From a virus: DNA of 38,684 nucleotides. The notes beneath the pieces were generated by a model that saw nothing but the letters and a program-made list of their open reading frames with translations, was not told the DNA's origin and did not search any database. Of the stretch, positions 29,080 to 38,163 are shown one piece after another. Both the position numbers and the translations under genes were made by a program. Positions within the stretch are counted from its first letter, which is position 1, and every line of letters begins with the position of its first letter. The stretch spans positions 1 through 38,684 of IMG/VR virus record IMGVR_UViG_3300029309_000106. One strand, 5' to 3'.

Positions 29080-32000
29080 ATGGCAACAGATCATAATTTT
29101 AGAATAAAAAACGGCCTCGAAGTAGGCGGCGTATTAATAGTGAATTCATCGGGGCAACTTCGTGTTGCAACAGTATCATCTAATCTAAATCTTTTAGATA
29201 GTGTAAGATTAAATGTAGGTACAGGTAACGATTTAGCTATTTTTCATACTGGTAGTAATGGTGTAATACATAATACTACAGGTGAATTAAGAATCCGAAG
29301 TAATACTTTAAAAATCCAAGACTTTACTAACGAAGACAATATGATTGTTGCAACTTCAAACAGTTCAGTAGACTTATATCACAATAATATTAAAGCATTT
29401 GAAACAACTACTTCAGGTATAATGGCACGAAGTCCACATGGTTATATTACAGTAGGGCCTGCTAATAGTAGCTTTGCACATATACAAACAGATAGAGCTC
29501 AATTTTATTTTAACAAAAAATTAAATGTTAATGAAGGTATTATAACATCTTATGATGAAGACTTGCAATTACAAAGAGTAGGTTCTACTAAAGTAACATT
29601 AAATTCAACAGGTGCATCAGTTTCAGGTAATCTTGGCATCAATGAAACTTCCCCTGATTCTAGATTGCATATTACTGGAACAGATGGTGGTTGGGATAAA
29701 CATATTACTATTGAGCACGATGGAAGCGATATAGGTAAAATCTTAGTTGATACCGATGGTATGAAGTTTAGAAATATGAGCAGTGGAAATGCTTTCTACT
29801 TTAGAGATAGTTCAAACAACACTCGTATGATTATAACTTCAAGTGGATCAGTTGGAATTGGAACAACTTCTCCAGCTGGTGGTCTGCATGTTGCAGGGTT
29901 TATTAGAGTAGATAATGCTGAAGGTATAGCAACTAGGAAAGTTAGGGCTAGTTATTTTTCTACTAGCCAAAATTTAATACTAGAAACTCATTCATCATCA
30001 GATATAATAATGGATACAGGCAAGGTTGGTATTGGAACAAGTTCACCAGTAAGTCCTTTAACTATTAAATCAAACTCAGTAAGTTCGCAAGAAAGCGGTC
30101 TTGCTATTATAGCTAATGGTAGTAATGATGCAATCTTTAAAGTTGCTGAAAGATCAACAAATGGTGCACGTATGCATATGTTTGATGGAGGAGTTGAAAA
30201 AATTGCCTTCTATACAGATGGAACAGCAAACCATATAAGTGCAGGTAATCTTGGTATTGGGATAACATCTCCAAGTCATAAACTTCACGTAGCTGGAACA
30301 GGAAAATTTGAGGGTGCACTTACTGTAGTAGTTTCATCTGGAGGCGGAGCTGCTTTAGCTATAAATCATTCTGGAAACGAAAACTGGTCTTTTGATGCAA
30401 GAAGTGGCTCAGGTTCAACTGACTATGTAGACTTTGGTATTGCGGGGGGTACAAGATGTATGACTTGGCAAGAAGATGGCAAAGTTGGTATAGGTACAAC
30501 TGCACCAGACGCACCTTTAACAGTTCATAGTAGTTCCGACCCTGAAATAAGAGTTGGTTATAGTTCTTCACAAGACCATAGAATTACTTGGGATAGTGCT
30601 AAATTATTTTTAGATGCCGACCCTGATAATGCTAATAATAATTCTGCTCTAGGGTTTAGAGTTGATGGAAGTGAGGCTGCTAGATTTGATTCATCAGGTA
30701 ATTTTGGTATAGGAACAAGTTCTCTTACAAATAAATTTCATGTAAGCGGTAATGCAAGAATTGAAGGTAATCTTATGGCTGGTGGTGCAGCTGCATCTAA
30801 TGTTCCAGCTAGACCTATTCATGTAAAATCAAGTGGAGACGGAGCTGCAATTCGTATTGAAGATACTACAAGTAGTAATCTTGCTTATGATATAAGAAGT
30901 ACACATGGCACAGGTTTATTATTTGTTGATGTAACAAATGGTGCTACCCGAATGACTATTAAAGATTCAGGTGGAATTAATTTTAATAATGCATATACTT
31001 TTCCAACATCAGATGGCTCAGCAAACCAAGTACTACAAACAGATGGTTCAGGTAACTTAAGTTTTGCTACTGTGCAATCAGGTGGTGGTACAATCACTGG
31101 TGTTTCTAATATGGCAAATAATAGAATACTTACAGCACAGGGCTCAACTACTATTAATGCTGAAAGTAAACTTACTTTTGATGGAAGTACATTATTATCA
31201 ACTGGAAATTCTATAATTGTTGATCCTGCTTCAAGTGATGCAGTATTATCCTTACAAGGTGCTTCAGGAGCCCAAACACTTAGGTTAGATCAAAATAGTA
31301 TTAGAACTATGACAAATTCTAACTTAGATATATTTACAAATGGAAATAGTAATCAACTTTACTTAAGACAAAGTAATGGTTTTGTAGGTATAGGAACATC
31401 TGCACCTTTAAGAAATTTAGAAGTAAGTGGTGCTGGAGCTAAACTTCGTGTAGGGCCAGATTACTATACAGCAAATGGAAGTACTGATAGAGATTTTGTT
31501 GAATTACAAGCTCATGGTAGTGATACTAAAATAGTATCGCCTAACGAAAGATTCCATATTGAAAATACCTCAGGAGATATAATATTAACTAGTAATGCTG
31601 TTGCTATTGGTACTAATGGTACTGTAAGTGCTAAAACAGTAATTAACGTTAATGCATCTGGAACACAAGCCGCTTTACTTTTAAACAATGCACATAGTTA
31701 TGGAAGTGGCGTTGGTACCGCTTCTACAGCATTACAATTTGCACGAGATAATACACCTACTAATGGCCAAGCAATTATAGGTGCACAGATACATTCAGGT
31801 AATGAAAACGAAAGTACAAGTAATCCACAAAATTTAATATTCTCAACTAAATCTGGAACAAGCCCGTATAACTTAACAGAGGCAATGAGGATTACTTCTC
31901 AACAGCGTGTTGGCATCGGAACTACATCGCCTGGCCAAAAACTAGAAGTTGCCGGTCGTGTTAGAGCAACAAGTGATCCAACTTTTGAGACATATGAATC

Positions 32001-35000
32001 ATCAACTAAAAGAGGTGGTATTCAATGGAATACTGGAAGTGATTATCTAAATTTATTCACTGTAGGTGGACATATAGTATTATCTGGAAATGGTAATAAC
32101 GTTGGTATAGACACTACTTCACCAGGACAAAAACTTGATGTTGCTGGTAATACAACATCAAATGCTTATATACTTAGGGCAAATGGATCCGCACCAACTG
32201 CTGATGCAGCTATATTTAGGGCAGCCGATAATACTTTAGCATTTTCTACAGGAAGCAGTGAAAAAATGCGTATTGATTCAGCTGGTAATATTGGTATTAA
32301 TGATCCAAGTCCTGATAGAAAAGTTAGTATTATTGGTGATAGTACATCTAATGGACAATATCCATTATCACTTGATGCAACAAATACAGATTACACATTA
32401 GAATTTAGAAGAAACGGACAATCTGAATGGTGGATTAAACAAGCTGGATCTAGTTTTAATATACATGAAAATGGAGTAGGAGACCACTTCCGAATAGCAG
32501 CAGGTGGTAGTATCGGTATTGGAACCACATCACCCGCTCAAAAACTTCAGGTAGAAGGAAATATTCGAATGAATACACCTGATACTGGTGGTGCACCGGC
32601 AATGACATCTACATTAGAAATGAGAGGTTATGAAGGTCGTGGTGTTGGCGTAAAAATAAGAGATTCTGTTAACAGTGCAAGTAGCCCAAATAATAGAGAA
32701 TGGTTTGTAGGAAGTGGGTATGGTACCTCTGGATTTAGAATTGGTTACGCAAGTGACGGCAATCAATCAGAGTATTCAGGCCAACAAGCACTTCACATTG
32801 ATACCTCACGTAATGTTAGTATTGCTCAAGGCAACTTGCAAATGGGAGGCACAACAGTAATTGATTCTTCAAGAAATCTTACTGTAGTAGGTATTACAGG
32901 CACAGGTAGTTATCATGAGATTGGTAACAATACAGGAGCAGTTAGTAATGATGGAAGTTGGAATGCAAGACTTAATATTGCTGGTACTTCGCATGCTCGT
33001 TTAGATTTATTTGAAGACGCAGATGATTCTAAACTAAGACTATATGTTCACGTAGGCCAACAGGCGAAGATTCAAACTACTTCAAATACAAATATAGACT
33101 TAGGTACAAATGGTTCCAATAGAGTAATAATTGATAGTAGTGGATTAAATATTGTATCGGGTCATTCTATAAGACATAATAGTACAACTGTTTTAGACTC
33201 ATCAAAAAATCTTGTAAATATAGGAACTATCTCTAGTGGTGCTATAACTTCTAATGTAAGTGATGGTACAGCAATTACTTTAAAAAGAAGTGGAAGTACA
33301 GCAGCTAAATTTGGCGTAGCTGCTGGACCAGTAGGATTTTTAGTTCTAAATGATACAACCTCTAATAATGTAGCCGCAATTAAAGGTACAAGTGCTGCGA
33401 TTTTACCATCTACTAACGCAGGAGCAGATAAACATGGAACAATGAACTTAGGTTCAAGTAGTGTAAAATTTGCAAATCTTTTCCTTTCAAATTATGCAGA
33501 CGCATCTTCATATAGAGTTGGTACAACTACAGTTATTGATTCTTCAAGAAACTTAACCAATATAGCATCAGCAAATATTGGAGGTGATTTAAACATTGCG
33601 AGTGTTATTGCCCATACTGGTGATTTAGACACTTACTTTCAATTCAATGCAGCTAATACAGCAAGAATTGTCGTAGGTGGATCTCAAAAATTTGTAGTTA
33701 ATACTAATGGTGTGTCTATATCTAATGGCACTCTAAATATGAATAGTGGAGATATTACTTCTGGAGGAAACATAACAGTTGGAGATAGCTCAACTGCAAA
33801 ACAAGTAAGAGCTCACTATAATGATGGTGCTCATATGACTCTTACAGGGTATGGTTTAGAAATGAATCGTGGTGCTTCTTACATACGACCAACTACAGAT
33901 GGTAATAAAACACTTTATATTGGAGGAGCAGATGCCTCCTTAGATTGGTCATCAATCCATTTTAGAAGTGTAAACGGTCTTTATATGACTGGCACTAAAT
34001 TTATTGACGCAAGTAGAAACATTAGTAATATTAATACTTTTTCTTCAACAGTAGCAGCACTTGGTCAAGCTGCAAGTGCTATGGACCAAACTAATCTTGA
34101 TTTAGACGTTGCAGGAAATGTGTCTATTCGTGGTGGGTCTGCACTTTATTTTGGTATTACAACAAATAACTATAATTCTTGGAAAGGTAAAATTTGGAAT
34201 AATAATACCTCAACAATGCAAATTAATGCGCAAGCATTAAACTTTAATAATACTGGTTACGGTTCAAGCACATTCTTTGTATCTAATTCAACTGGATTTG
34301 ATATTCGTACTGGTAGCTTATTAATGAATGGTACAGCAGTTATAGATTCTTCAAGAAACCTTAATAATATTGGTACTATTAACATTGGTGGAACAACTAC
34401 AGTCGGAGACTTTAAAACATCTGGTACAGTACAACTTGGTGGTAGTAGAGGAGTAATGCTAAAATCATTAACTGCAGTATTTAGTAATGGTACAGCAAAT
34501 CAATATGCTCGTGTAAATTTAGGTAATAATTATTTTTCAGGAACTTTTAAAGTTAAAGTACAAGGAACATATAGCCATCAAAATACTGTTGGATATATAG
34601 AAAAAATTTGGTCAGTTGGATTAAATATTAACAATAGTGTATGGAGAAATACAGTTGAGCGAGTAGACCAATTTGGACTTGCAGCTCAAAACTTTACTAT
34701 AGGAGATATTGCTTGGGACGGTTCTCAGTATTATTTTGATATTTATCATATTGTTTCTACAGGTAATAATATAAATATTGATCTTGAACTTCATAGTCAT
34801 AACGCTCAACCTGCTATGTATACTGCTTTTGATGGAGTTACAGTAAGTAGTGTTACAACAGGCACTATACCAAGTGCTTTTAGTAGTCAATTTGCTTCTG
34901 GAGTAACTCCTTTTAGAAACACTAGATTAACAATTGATGGTGACATGAATGTAGGAGATGGCTCGAATGATAGTAGAGTTATAATTAAAAAGCCAGATAA

Positions 35001-36450
35001 TAATGTTGCAGATCATATACAGTTTTTTAATGGATCAACAAGAACAGGCGAAATGGGTTCCATGGACAATTCATGGTTAAGAATAAACCAAGTAACTAAT
35101 AAAAATATTTATACTCCAAGATATATTCGTGCTGATAATGGATTCTTTATTGATAGTACTTCAAAAGGTATTGATGGAAATGGTAATTTATTAGGAATTG
35201 GAACAGTTGCTTGTGGTGCTATAACAAGTAGTGCAGTCCAAACATTTACAAAATCTGTTTATGGTGATTTTTCATCAGAAAACTTTTACAGAATTAAATT
35301 TCAAGATCAAGGTGGCATAACAAATGACGTAGGCATAGGACAATTCCAGAGTGGAGCTTTAGGTTTCAATGTTACACAAGGGCAAGAGTTTAGATTTAAT
35401 GAAGGAACAGATGGAATTGTTGGTGTTATAGGACCAAATGGTGTAGATGCTAGACAAGGTGGTTTCAGAATTGGTACAACCACAGTTATAAATTCTTCAA
35501 GAGAAATAAGAAACTGTCCTGGAATTTTTAATTCAAGTGATTTAGAAGCACTTACATTAGATCATGCAACATACACAATACTAAGAACTCCTGAAGCTCA
35601 TTCTGCATTACATTTAGGAGATAGTGCAGATAGGGGTAACTATTACTCAAACAATGCTCACTACTTTAGAGATTTTAGTTCAAATATGTTATTAACTTTA
35701 ACAGGAAGTGTTGCAAACTTAAATGGAATTAATTTACAGATGAGTGGAACAACAGTACTAGATAGTTCAAGAAATCTTACAAATATAGGAACTTCTAATT
35801 TTTCAGGAGCTATGACAGTAAATGCAAACATAGATTTAAGTTCAACAGATACAGCTACTCGTTATATACACATGCCTCGAGGCGGTGGAATCACATTCTA
35901 TGGAGATACAAGTGTACACCATGGTATATTCTCAAGAAACCAATCTAATAGTTCAGCAGATGATTTACTAATTAGTTCTTATGGTGCAGTTTATATTGAT
36001 TTAGACTCAAATAGCAATAATAGCTCAGCTGCAGATTTCATAATTGGCAAACATAACTCTACTGGATTAAATTTATTCAGTGTTAATGGAGAAACGGGAG
36101 CTGTAATTGGAACAAATGACATTACTGCATTTGGTTCACCATCAGATATTAGACTTAAAGAAAATATAGAAGTAATTGCTGATCCAATAGAAAAGGTACT
36201 AAAACTAAGAGGTGTCACATTTAATTACAAAGACACAGGTAAAAAATCAACTGGACTTATTGCACAAGATTTAGAAGAAGTCTTGCCAGAAGTTGTTTAT
36301 GAAACACATGATATAAATGATGAAGAAAATAAATTTAAAGCAGTGAGATATGGTAATACCGTAGGTTTATTGGTTGAAGCAATAAAAACACAACAAGAAC
36401 AAATTGACGAACTTAAACAACAAGTTCAAGATTTAACGAATCAAAAATAG
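29080..36450 (+). CDS. Very large tail fibre protein with C-terminal S74 intramolecular chaperone
   Basis: This 2456-residue protein follows GGAG at 29065-29068. The N-terminus (DHNFRIKNGLEVGGVLIV) resembles fibre attachment ends of marine phages. About eleven VGIGTTSP-type units run from about residue 185 to 1165, then seven or eight TTVIDSSRNLTNIGT-type units from about 1265 to 2240. A globular insert lies near 1800-1950 (VMLKSLTAVFSNG, YFSGTFKVKVQGTY). The C-terminus is a peptidase S74 chaperone: SPSDIRLKENIEV holds Ser2355/Lys2360 with the S-x4-K spacing of the catalytic pair, then STGLIAQDLEEVLPEVV and a coiled coil (QQEQIDELKQQVQDL). Self-cleavage would release about 102 residues once the trimer has folded. 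It is likely a main host-binding fibre. Confidence 0.85.
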   Translation: MATDHNFRIKNGLEVGGVLIVNSSGQLRVATVSSNLNLLDSVRLNVGTGNDLAIFHTGSNGVIHNTTGELRIRSNTLKIQDFTNEDNMIVATSNSSVDLYHNNIKAFETTTSGIMARSPHGYITVGPANSSFAHIQTDRAQFYFNKKLNVNEGIITSYDEDLQLQRVGSTKVTLNSTGASVSGNLGINETSPDSRLHITGTDGGWDKHITIEHDGSDIGKILVDTDGMKFRNMSSGNAFYFRDSSNNTRMIITSSGSVGIGTTSPAGGLHVAGFIRVDNAEGIATRKVRASYFSTSQNLILETHSSSDIIMDTGKVGIGTSSPVSPLTIKSNSVSSQESGLAIIANGSNDAIFKVAERSTNGARMHMFDGGVEKIAFYTDGTANHISAGNLGIGITSPSHKLHVAGTGKFEGALTVVVSSGGGAALAINHSGNENWSFDARSGSGSTDYVDFGIAGGTRCMTWQEDGKVGIGTTAPDAPLTVHSSSDPEIRVGYSSSQDHRITWDSAKLFLDADPDNANNNSALGFRVDGSEAARFDSSGNFGIGTSSLTNKFHVSGNARIEGNLMAGGAAASNVPARPIHVKSSGDGAAIRIEDTTSSNLAYDIRSTHGTGLLFVDVTNGATRMTIKDSGGINFNNAYTFPTSDGSANQVLQTDGSGNLSFATVQSGGGTITGVSNMANNRILTAQGSTTINAESKLTFDGSTLLSTGNSIIVDPASSDAVLSLQGASGAQTLRLDQNSIRTMTNSNLDIFTNGNSNQLYLRQSNGFVGIGTSAPLRNLEVSGAGAKLRVGPDYYTANGSTDRDFVELQAHGSDTKIVSPNERFHIENTSGDIILTSNAVAIGTNGTVSAKTVINVNASGTQAALLLNNAHSYGSGVGTASTALQFARDNTPTNGQAIIGAQIHSGNENESTSNPQNLIFSTKSGTSPYNLTEAMRITSQQRVGIGTTSPGQKLEVAGRVRATSDPTFETYESSTKRGGIQWNTGSDYLNLFTVGGHIVLSGNGNNVGIDTTSPGQKLDVAGNTTSNAYILRANGSAPTADAAIFRAADNTLAFSTGSSEKMRIDSAGNIGINDPSPDRKVSIIGDSTSNGQYPLSLDATNTDYTLEFRRNGQSEWWIKQAGSSFNIHENGVGDHFRIAAGGSIGIGTTSPAQKLQVEGNIRMNTPDTGGAPAMTSTLEMRGYEGRGVGVKIRDSVNSASSPNNREWFVGSGYGTSGFRIGYASDGNQSEYSGQQALHIDTSRNVSIAQGNLQMGGTTVIDSSRNLTVVGITGTGSYHEIGNNTGAVSNDGSWNARLNIAGTSHARLDLFEDADDSKLRLYVHVGQQAKIQTTSNTNIDLGTNGSNRVIIDSSGLNIVSGHSIRHNSTTVLDSSKNLVNIGTISSGAITSNVSDGTAITLKRSGSTAAKFGVAAGPVGFLVLNDTTSNNVAAIKGTSAAILPSTNAGADKHGTMNLGSSSVKFANLFLSNYADASSYRVGTTTVIDSSRNLTNIASANIGGDLNIASVIAHTGDLDTYFQFNAANTARIVVGGSQKFVVNTNGVSISNGTLNMNSGDITSGGNITVGDSSTAKQVRAHYNDGAHMTLTGYGLEMNRGASYIRPTTDGNKTLYIGGADASLDWSSIHFRSVNGLYMTGTKFIDASRNISNINTFSSTVAALGQAASAMDQTNLDLDVAGNVSIRGGSALYFGITTNNYNSWKGKIWNNNTSTMQINAQALNFNNTGYGSSTFFVSNSTGFDIRTGSLLMNGTAVIDSSRNLNNIGTINIGGTTTVGDFKTSGTVQLGGSRGVMLKSLTAVFSNGTANQYARVNLGNNYFSGTFKVKVQGTYSHQNTVGYIEKIWSVGLNINNSVWRNTVERVDQFGLAAQNFTIGDIAWDGSQYYFDIYHIVSTGNNINIDLELHSHNAQPAMYTAFDGVTVSSVTTGTIPSAFSSQFASGVTPFRNTRLTIDGDMNVGDGSNDSRVIIKKPDNNVADHIQFFNGSTRTGEMGSMDNSWLRINQVTNKNIYTPRYIRADNGFFIDSTSKGIDGNGNLLGIGTVACGAITSSAVQTFTKSVYGDFSSENFYRIKFQDQGGITNDVGIGQFQSGALGFNVTQGQEFRFNEGTDGIVGVIGPNGVDARQGGFRIGTTTVINSSREIRNCPGIFNSSDLEALTLDHATYTILRTPEAHSALHLGDSADRGNYYSNNAHYFRDFSSNMLLTLTGSVANLNGINLQMSGTTVLDSSRNLTNIGTSNFSGAMTVNANIDLSSTDTATRYIHMPRGGGITFYGDTSVHHGIFSRNQSNSSADDLLISSYGAVYIDLDSNSNNSSAADFIIGKHNSTGLNLFSVNGETGAVIGTNDITAFGSPSDIRLKENIEVIADPIEKVLKLRGVTFNYKDTGKKSTGLIAQDLEEVLPEVVYETHDINDEENKFKAVRYGNTVGLLVEAIKTQQEQIDELKQQVQDLTNQK
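30984..31090 (+). repeat. Segment shared with the previous fibre gene (copy 2)
   Basis: This encodes NNAYTFPTSDGSANQVLQTD and the following GSGNLSFATVQSGGGT, matching the copy at about 25052-25158. The shared 15-base word cAGGTAACTTAAGTT within it is identical in both genes. Confidence 0.7.
32855..35800 (+). repeat. VIDSSRNL repeat series in the last fibre gene
   Basis: Units of the form G-TT-V-I-D-S-S-R-N-L-x-N-I recur about every 100-170 residues (for example near 32855, 33185, 33525, 34335, 35485 and 35750, with a looser FIDASRNI near 34000). Each is preceded by a strand region and followed by a short 'I-x-x-G' strand. They probably mark repeated beta-structural blocks of the fibre shaft. 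Confidence 0.65.
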
Positions 36451-36532: not shown

Positions 36533-36799
36533 ATGGCAATAACAAAAGTAACAAAAGTACAACGTATCGAAGTATACCCAGCAATGGACTCAAGTGCGGC
36601 ATCTACAAAAAATGATGCACATGAAAGAGTAATGGTTGTATACGAAGACACTCTAGATGATAGTGGAGACGCAGATTTACCTGTAACTGCTACAAGAGTA
36701 AAACATTTAACAAAATTAGTTGCAGATGATGGAGCAGCAACAGACTACTCAGGTGAAGATGCACTTGTAAAAGTAGTTTGCGCAGCAATCTGGGCATAA
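36533..36799 (+). CDS. Small conserved virion-type protein
   Basis: This 88-residue protein has a strong ribosome site (AGAGGAG) and its own promoter. It begins AITKVTKVQRIEVYPAMDSS, with the strand ERVMVVYEDTLDDSGDADLP and a C-terminal helix region GEDALVKVVCAAIWA. I recognise this as a small protein often found near the structural genes of marine phages; its role is not known to me. The high promoter and ribosome-site quality suggests abundant production, so a virion or assembly component is likely. It is separated from the Hint-domain gene by 3 bases, and the two are probably co-expressed. Confidence 0.6.
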   Translation: MAITKVTKVQRIEVYPAMDSSAASTKNDAHERVMVVYEDTLDDSGDADLPVTATRVKHLTKLVADDGAATDYSGEDALVKVVCAAIWA

Positions 36800-36802
36800 A
36801 AT

Positions 36803-37999
36803 ATGGCTACCCCTGCTAACAATAGTACACCCATTACATTACTTGGTATACAAAGAGAAGTATTTAATAATAACTATAACGCATCAAATACTCATAGTGA
36901 TATTTCTTTAACTGATTTAAGTGAAGAAGCAGATGAAAATTTTAATGCAAATAGTCCAAGTAAGCCTGATGGAAATACGCCGCATGCAATGAGTGAGTGG
37001 TATAATTACGACCATGATGCAGCTCCCGCATTTACTTGGGGCACTAATGGAGGCGTATCTCAAGGTTGGGGTAGTGCATCAGGTAATTCACCATTTACAG
37101 CAAATGCAACTTGTAGTCTTGGTTTTGCATTTCAACCTGCTAATGATAGAGTAAGAGTAAAACATGGTAACGGTAATAATAGTAGTGCTGTATCTTATAG
37201 TTATAATAGCGTTAGCTATACAGGAGCCGACCCAGATCAGGTAGAATTTAAAATAGTTTGGACAGGAGTATTTTCTGGATCAACCACTAGTTCATCAGAA
37301 GCTTCAGGTTCAACTTCAGGTACTTATTATCAAATGTCTAAACAAACGACCTCAAGTGACAGCGGTACTTTTACTATGAGAAACTGGTTCATACAGAAAT
37401 CATCTGGCGTAGGTGGTGCAGCATATAATGCAATTGGAGCTAATAGTCCACAGTGGACATATAGAGCAAAAGATTCAAGTGGAAATGTAATAGCAACAAG
37501 TGGTACCTCAAGTCAAAATGGAATTTCACTTTCAGTAACTAGAGGTCAACAAGGCGGAGAGTTCTTCTGTATACATGAAGATATAATGATTCAAACTGAA
37601 CAAGGATTAATGAGTGTAAAAGATGTTGCAGACAAAGATCCGAAGATATGGACTTATAACTGGAATACTGGAGAAAAAGAATTACAAGACCAAAATCACA
37701 ATATTCAAATAGTTCACAATAATTTATATACTATAAATGATAACTTTAAAATTACAGAAGACCATATTATGTATGATAAAGAAAAACGAGAATATACTAT
37801 TAATCCAGATGCAACTCTAGATAAATATGGTAAAACTTCTCAAAAACTATCAGTTGGAATATCACTTAAAACTTTTGATGGCACCGACTTTATTGTGGAA
37901 AAAATTGAACGCTATGAAGGAGATCATTGGACGTACACAATTAGTACAGATAATGGAAACTTTTATGCAGGAAACTTATTAGTGGATTCAGAAATATGA
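36803..37999 (+). CDS. Virion-type protein with C-terminal Hint (hedgehog/intein) domain
   Basis: This 398-residue protein starts 3 bases after the previous stop without its own clear ribosome site. Residues 1-80 (STPITLLGIQREVFN, SLTDLSEEADEN, HAMSEWYNYDH) match N-termini of phage virion proteins. Residues 80-250 are Ser/Gly-rich beta structure. From Cys256 (FFCIHEDIMIQTEQGLMSVK) to the end is a Hint domain: the Cys256 nucleophile, a T318-E-D-H321 TxxH motif, a late IVEKIERYEGDHWTYTISTD strand pair and a final NFYAGNLLV. The normal end, VHN plus Cys/Ser/Thr, is replaced by VDSEI, so the Asn needed for splicing is absent. It may self-cleave before Cys256 or form an ester or amide link there, rather than splice. 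No homing endonuclease is inserted. The catalytic outcome is inferred. Confidence 0.75.
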   Translation: MATPANNSTPITLLGIQREVFNNNYNASNTHSDISLTDLSEEADENFNANSPSKPDGNTPHAMSEWYNYDHDAAPAFTWGTNGGVSQGWGSASGNSPFTANATCSLGFAFQPANDRVRVKHGNGNNSSAVSYSYNSVSYTGADPDQVEFKIVWTGVFSGSTTSSSEASGSTSGTYYQMSKQTTSSDSGTFTMRNWFIQKSSGVGGAAYNAIGANSPQWTYRAKDSSGNVIATSGTSSQNGISLSVTRGQQGGEFFCIHEDIMIQTEQGLMSVKDVADKDPKIWTYNWNTGEKELQDQNHNIQIVHNNLYTINDNFKITEDHIMYDKEKREYTINPDATLDKYGKTSQKLSVGISLKTFDGTDFIVEKIERYEGDHWTYTISTDNGNFYAGNLLVDSEI

Positions 38000-38163
38000 A
38001 AAGTTATTTAGTAACATGTACTTATAGTGGTGGAACTAAACAAGGTTACATGCACGGTGAAGATTATGAAGAAGGCACTGCAGAGTATAATGCAGAGTTG
38101 GCTAGACTAACTGCAGAGGCTCAAAAAGGATTTGATAACTGGGATGCAGGAGATCGAGAATAA
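37996..38163 (+). CDS. Small 55-residue protein overlapping the Hint gene
   Basis: An ATG at 37996 overlaps the Hint gene stop as ATGA, and the frame ends at TAA 38161-38163, giving 55 residues. It starts MKSYLVTCTYSGGTKQGYMH and continues with an acidic helical part (EEGTAEYNAELARLTAEAQK) ending FDNWDAGDRE. It is below the usual size cut-off but has a coupling overlap, codon use like its neighbours, and ends 24 bases before the terminator. It is the third gene of the promoter-to-terminator unit. I do not recognise the family. Possible roles are a Hint partner or a small virion or host-interaction protein; none is shown. Confidence 0.6.
   Translation: MKSYLVTCTYSGGTKQGYMHGEDYEEGTAEYNAELARLTAEAQKGFDNWDAGDRE

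Follow-up and report, generated by a model that had tools for sequence, protein, structure and literature searches.

HINT-fold domains related to the one reported here have been described in several settings. B-type BIL domains are reported to lack the C-terminal intein motif and to cleave at their N-terminus (PMC7765530). In the NrdJ-1 intein, which comes from a marine metagenome, the native exteins are NPC and SEI (PMC13123727). Self-removal of a C-terminal domain is also described for a phage fibre: the C-terminal chaperone of T5 pb1 is lost by autoproteolysis, a step proposed to unmask a receptor site (PMC4690869). The fold and chemistry of such Peptidase_S74 chaperones (Ser cleavage) are unrelated to those of Hint domains, but T5 pb1 offers a precedent for a phage fibre that sheds its own C-terminal domain. 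Hint domains on phage tail-like proteins are already known from annotation. The annotated tail protein of Alcaligenes phage Afa-NA1 (XUE01657.1) has collagen-like repeats and a C-terminal Hint; a Hint-bearing tail-like protein is annotated in Salmonella phage Sen-NF (listing entry only); and BFVD holds uncultured Caudovirales proteins named for collagen repeat, fibronectin III and Hint (names only). A search of titles and abstract openings in the open-licence literature found no paper describing a Hint on phage tail proteins.

The Hint domain described here lies at the end of a tail-module protein encoded in a 38,684-base stretch of DNA (the window), an IMG/VR virus record from a marine virus of bacteria. 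The tail module of the window is of the long-tailed-phage type, with tail terminator, major tail, distal tail and tail-fibre-J-like proteins assigned by PHROGs. The features of the locus, with the contig L001 as the relative used for comparison, are as follows.

29080..36450, plus strand: gene for a 2456-residue fibre with a C-terminal Peptidase_S74 intramolecular chaperone domain
36533..36799, plus strand: 88-residue open reading frame (ORF) between the S74 fibre gene and the Hint gene, found in many relatives
36803..37999, plus strand: gene for the tail-module protein with C-terminal Hint, 398 residues, 43.6 kDa (ORF list, translation, residue check)
36803..37021, plus strand: residues 1-73, N-terminal module modelled at low confidence, pLDDT about 40
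37031..37546, plus strand: residues 77-248, beta-rich domain common to Hint-less homologues (homologue comparison, model)
37541..37567, plus strand: RGQQGGEFF, short Gly-rich linker 5' of Cys256; the equivalent stretch is the stop region of Hint-less homologues
37556..37615, plus strand: recombination junction relative to L001 at the FCIHED codons, where identity falls from 0.95 to about 0.65
37568..37996, plus strand: Hint domain, C256-I398, the last 143 residues, 16.7 kDa (model, structure search, residue check)
37568..37570, plus strand: Cys256, which is predicted to be the nucleophile in the N-S acyl shift and is the same in 12/12 copies (structural register, alignment)
37715..37717, plus strand: His305, invariant in 12/12 (alignment)
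37754..37765, plus strand: T318-E-D-H321, block-B TxxH motif, with T, D and H invariant in 12/12 (alignment)
37985..37996, plus strand: D395-S396-E397-I398, invariant end, with D at the intein His place and S at the Asn place (structure, alignment)
37996..38163, plus strand: 55-residue ORF overlapping the stop of the Hint gene (ATGA)

Used as a single query, the window protein gave no match naming a Hint in NCBIfam, PDB, Pfam or PHROGs; the best weak hits (ArlG, 0.064; PHROG 31956, 0.053) were judged to be chance. The assignment therefore rests on its relatives and on its fold. A five-member family profile matched the Spl DnaX mini-intein (E 2.9e-5) and the NrdJ-1 intein (E 1.3e-4) in the PDB, and three of the five members touched Pfam Intein_splicing (best E 3.3e-4). 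A match of two of the five to Pfam AXH, at 1.8e-4, was treated as spurious, the fold search having given HINT. Eight Hint sequences were the input for AlphaFold; the best of five models, which was the one used, reached pLDDT 95.2 and pTM 0.88; of the five, two scored poorly, at 46 and 48. Foldseek matched this model to 48 PDB chains at E<=0.001 (E 6.8e-10). The best structural match by VIA was the Tetrahymena BUBL1 BIL2 (6y75; Z 21.0, rmsd 1.9, 138 aligned), followed by the NrdJ-1 intein (Z 18.2, rmsd 1.9, 130 aligned) and Hedgehog 1at0 (Z 15.4, rmsd 2.2, 127 aligned). With the full-length model, the matches were taken up by the Hint, and the structure search gave no fold match for the N-terminal domain. 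The features of the HINT superfamily, namely the fold, a Cys at position 1 and a block-B TxxH, are present, the residues in all 12 copies compared. Judged by profile and model, the C-terminal 143 residues of the 398-residue protein are a HINT domain, and the Hint that the initial annotation had placed at 37568-37999 is borne out.

Viral contigs were scanned for relatives, using either the Hint alignment or a DNA pattern for the C-terminal end, and 14 contigs besides the window were obtained. In all 15, the Hint is at the very end of its protein. Searches elsewhere gave little. The whole protein had no tblastn match among 50,697 phage records. The Hint alone drew four records at E 5 to 10; the one that was read, the Syn9 gp94 protein, has no Hint. 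Two other Hint copies drew two records each; the sole genuine intein among these was in the Brochothrix phage BL3 terminase (E 1e-3), matched in its N-terminal part. A pattern scan of genome contigs gave 131 pattern stretches and no relative.

Twelve distinct copies were compared, omitting L023, whose start is cut off, and L007 and L010, which nearly duplicate L008 and L009. Their pairwise identity ranges from 42 to 94%, and 33 of 144 positions are invariant, including C256, H305, T318, D320, H321, H375 and L393-I398. Cys256 and the TxxH motif (T318, H321), proposed at the outset as the residues of the first acyl shift, are confirmed by translation and lie in the catalytic blocks; the residues for N-terminal cleavage were assessed solely in the alignment. 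Every copy has F, I, L or V immediately ahead of the Cys, at residue 255. The ranges aligned for the full-length model match residue 256 to residue 1 of inteins and to Hedgehog Cys258, and residue 396 to chain positions in Mtu RecA and gp41-1 that we take to be the terminal Asn. The protein ends in F387-YAGNLLVDSEI-398, followed by TGA at 37997-37999. By structural register the intein His and Asn places are taken by D395 and S396, and E397 would be the +1 residue. All 12 copies have this replacement, and the end of the Hint offers no other Asn among them. The terminal LVDSEI persists down to 42% identity. Four copies (L016, L018, L020, L025) came from the pattern that fixes the end, and the other eight, the window among them, were found without it and have the same ends.

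These residues separate the domain from several described classes. The C-terminal His-Asn of A-type BIL domains and of class 1 inteins (or an Asn, Gln or Asp end in the latter) is absent in the structural register given above. The wild-type Tetrahymena BUBL1 BIL2 (6y75, 6tmm) retains Asn143, unlike the window Hint (the entry is C1A-N143A). BUBL1 BIL2 lies in a polyubiquitin-like precursor. The Afa-NA1 Hint ends in LVHN-MDDSGYETKRKY, which is BIL-A-like, and its protein showed no resemblance to the window N-domain. No toxin domain follows the Hint, as one does in polymorphic-toxin HINT proteins; it is terminal in all contigs read. There is a likeness to B-type BIL domains: the HINT fold and the intein N-terminal motifs are kept, the C-terminal His-Asn is missing, and the host proteins are variable, with swapped cassettes and differing N-domains. 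This likeness is one of features, and the window family differs in being strictly terminal in phage tail-module proteins and in its fixed DSEI.

The N-domain is also found in proteins that have no Hint. A scan with the N-domain core recovered 13 contigs, six of them known Hint carriers and seven Hint-less. The Hint-less homologues are not close orthologues (core identity to the query 41-53%). All seven have a conserved strand ending in TRG (or ARS), then a Gly/Pro-rich tail and a stop, as in SLSATRGTAGPGGGGL-stop; carriers have a like tail leading to the Cys, as in SVSATRGTQGPGGGGGGGFI-CVHED, and in L018 this linker is longer than in the window. Cleavage before Cys256 would thus leave a C-terminus of the Hint-less type. 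Three frames read downstream of the seven Hint-less genes, over about 330 bases or less at contig ends, contained nothing Hint-like. On these comparisons, the Hint is an add-on at a natural protein end.

Several neighbours are common to carriers and Hint-less relatives. An upstream ORF of about 88-95 residues is found in most loci, and a large fibre with a C-terminus similar by eye is present in the window, L006, L008, L018 and L020 and in the Hint-less L174, L176 and L179. Upstream genes differ in L005, L175, L177 and L178, and L180 is cut short. An ORF of 49-60 residues often lies directly 3' of the tail gene, and lysozyme or other late genes are also shared. From this gene context, the 398-residue protein is probably tail-tip or fibre associated. 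In many loci the 49-60-residue ORF is at or overlaps the tail-gene stop (ATGA), and its sequence differs between Hint carriers and the Hint-less L174-L180; it is perhaps a small chaperone.

Other genes were observed nearby. Curli secretion genes (CsgF, CsgG) adjoin Hint tail genes at L001:3412-4685 and L020:9269-10130. Curli genes are reported in pelagimyophages (PMC7029224), and their presence near Hint genes hints at SAR11 or related hosts. The same phage cluster holds iron-sulfur genes, NifU_N (IscU-like) and Fe-S_biosyn (IscA-like), at L001:2032-2843; similar ORFs were noted by eye in L005, L016 and L178.

The window gene was compared with that of L001, its nearest relative. Nucleotide identity per 60 bases is 0.77-0.95 in the N-domain, 0.95 just before the Cys and 0.48-0.75 in the Hint, and the two parts differ in synonymous divergence, at 0.39 for the N-domain and 1.17 for the Hint. 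The jump at the FCIHED codons implies that one half was exchanged in either the window or the L001 gene. In three close pairs, the dN/dS of the Hint was 0.025/0.226, 0.093/0.601 and 0.107/0.867, or about 0.11-0.15. These sequence comparisons mark the Hint as a cassette that has been swapped and is under purifying selection.

What, then, does the domain do? Our preferred reading, to which we give slightly better than an even chance, is that a phage tail-module protein carries the Hint as a C-terminal cap that processes itself and can be shuffled, with its thioester resolved by hydrolysis. Cys256, aided by Thr318 and His321, would attack the Phe255-Cys256 peptide bond in an N-S acyl shift. Neither Asn cyclisation nor ligation would follow, because Asp395-Ser396 replaces the intein His-Asn. 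Hydrolysis of the thioester would release the 16.7-kDa Hint; the remaining 26.9-kDa tail protein would have a Gly-rich C-terminus resembling that of the natural Hint-less homologues. Removal of the Hint may uncover a C-terminal tail or time assembly, as with the S74 chaperone in T5 pb1. Thioester-only chemistry, as first expected for this protein, is the best inference from its residues, and N-terminal cleavage is favoured because the Hint-less homologues end at the cut site. Plain hydrolysis would, as a counterpoint, leave the strict conservation of DSEI unexplained.

Release of the Hint by Hedgehog-type transfer was ranked less likely than hydrolysis, and we consider it improbable, though it is the main rival. 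Here the Phe255 thioester would pass to a specific nucleophile, fixing the tail protein covalently to an amine or hydroxyl of another virion protein, to a lipid or to a host-surface molecule. The catalytic start is the same as in Hedgehog. D296 (10/12 copies) and H305 (12/12) are, in the alignment, candidates for the Hedgehog-type acceptor-activating Asp or His; the invariant extra H305, H375 and DSEI could orient an acceptor, and a flexible Gly-rich tail suits ligation. The Hedgehog comparison made in the initial annotation is sound for the fold, the Cys, the TxxH and the absent Asn but loose beyond them: the N-domain differs, and the protein ends two residues past the Asn position, with no sterol-recognition or other acceptor-binding domain after the Hint. 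No candidate acceptor was found, and the plain C-terminus of the Hint-less homologues also speaks against transfer.

Somewhat less probable again is that the Hint is kept as a folded, non-reacting structural or binding cap. The loss of intein C-terminal catalysis would suit such a role, and no activity is known. Yet Cys256 and TxDH are among the few positions invariant in all copies, and the Hint sits exactly at the end of the Hint-less homologues.

The conserved end also bears on the origin of the domain. The last three residues, SEI, are identical to the native C-extein of NrdJ-1. At least 120 viral-contig loci (L029-L148) have LVHN-[SCT]EI, most apparently in ribonucleotide reductase (RNR) by motif; complete inteins were recovered from 80 of the 120 among the matches listed, at least 58 of them distinct (14 SEI, 44 CEI). 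SEI follows LV both in the intein L037, NNFYANDVLVHN-SEI, and in the Hint of L001, NNFYANDILVDSEI. A Hint HMM, with DSEI and HN trimmed, scored SEI inteins at a mean of 35.2 bits versus 16.8 for CEI inteins in the 58 listed; eight of its top nine were SEI inteins (Mann-Whitney p 5e-6, which ignores kinship). In trees, the Hints group together as a single clade (100/99) whose branch is long and separate from RNR inteins. This clade stood beside a PhoH intein in the first tree and outside all RNR inteins in the second, from which 5 long-branch and 16 redundant rows of 75 were dropped. A single clade of Hints and SEI inteins was neither supported nor rejected (AU p 0.271). An uninterrupted NLCSEI site is present in the reductase of three Hint-carrier phages (G002, G006, G008), and the G001 site reads NLCCEI; a PF02867 search of eight Hint-carrier records had no match in four, all fragments. 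The window contig ends in an incomplete minus-strand ORF similar to the C-terminal end of the RNR small subunit (E 5.1e-7, below the family cut-off). Descent from an NPC|SEI-type RNR intein is possible, with the chances about equal either way. The differences from NrdJ-1-type split inteins are that the Hint has Asp in place of His-Asn, is a single chain and lies outside RNR.

Other inteins were observed in the same searches. Viral contigs very often hold inteins, split or contiguous, at the NPC/NLC of the reductase active site ahead of SEI/CEI, which makes these contigs a useful source of NrdJ-1-like split inteins. The PhoH intein of Campylobacter phage IBB_35 (L164:1001-1393), which joined the Hint clade on long branches, starts with CLHED like the Hints and ends in VLSKN-C without the usual His. 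In Salicola phage SCTP-2 (L165:801-1277), an intein lies inside a tail-collar-like motif (GWALC / CDGSNGTPDLTDRF).

Two further readings draw on the resemblance to RNR inteins. In the first, a swappable cassette arose by domestication of an RNR intein, perhaps one from nearby nrd genes, along with its SEI, and the Gly-rich end of the tail protein would be thioester-activated and joined covalently to a virion or host acceptor; we regard this as a rather slim chance, and if true, phages would possess a tail-tip ligation system. The second, cryptic splicing, is quite doubtful. Asp395 would be the last intein residue and Ser396 the +1 nucleophile, giving a tail protein ending EFF-SEI. Inteins with a final Asp are described as cyclising that Asp, some inteins tolerate loss of the penultimate His, and only the invariant SEI, with the letters of the NrdJ-1 C-extein, could serve as a C-extein. 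The claim that there is no C-extein is to be read with this in mind: two residues follow the Asn position, and the last three residues match a native C-extein. By structural register, however, D occupies the His place and S the Asn place, which leaves the end short by one residue. A decaying, functionless intein stranded at a gene end, for which the resemblance to RNR inteins might speak, is the least credible reading and is already disfavoured by the low dN/dS, the end conserved in copies at 42% identity and the cassette exchange.

With Hints on phage tail-like proteins known from annotation, what appears to be new is the variant ending in DSEI, the existence of Hint-less counterparts and the swapping of the cassette. 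As a natural experiment, one phage tail domain occurs in two forms, ending either in a Hint or, at the equivalent position, in a plain C-terminus, and this pairing makes cleavage, its timing and any acceptor directly testable. A small (143-residue) N-cleaving Hint devoid of intein C-terminal activity could also serve in the making of protein thioesters. If the self-processing cap is real, HINT chemistry would be a second way, besides the S74 chaperone carried by the upstream fibre, for phages to process their tail proteins.
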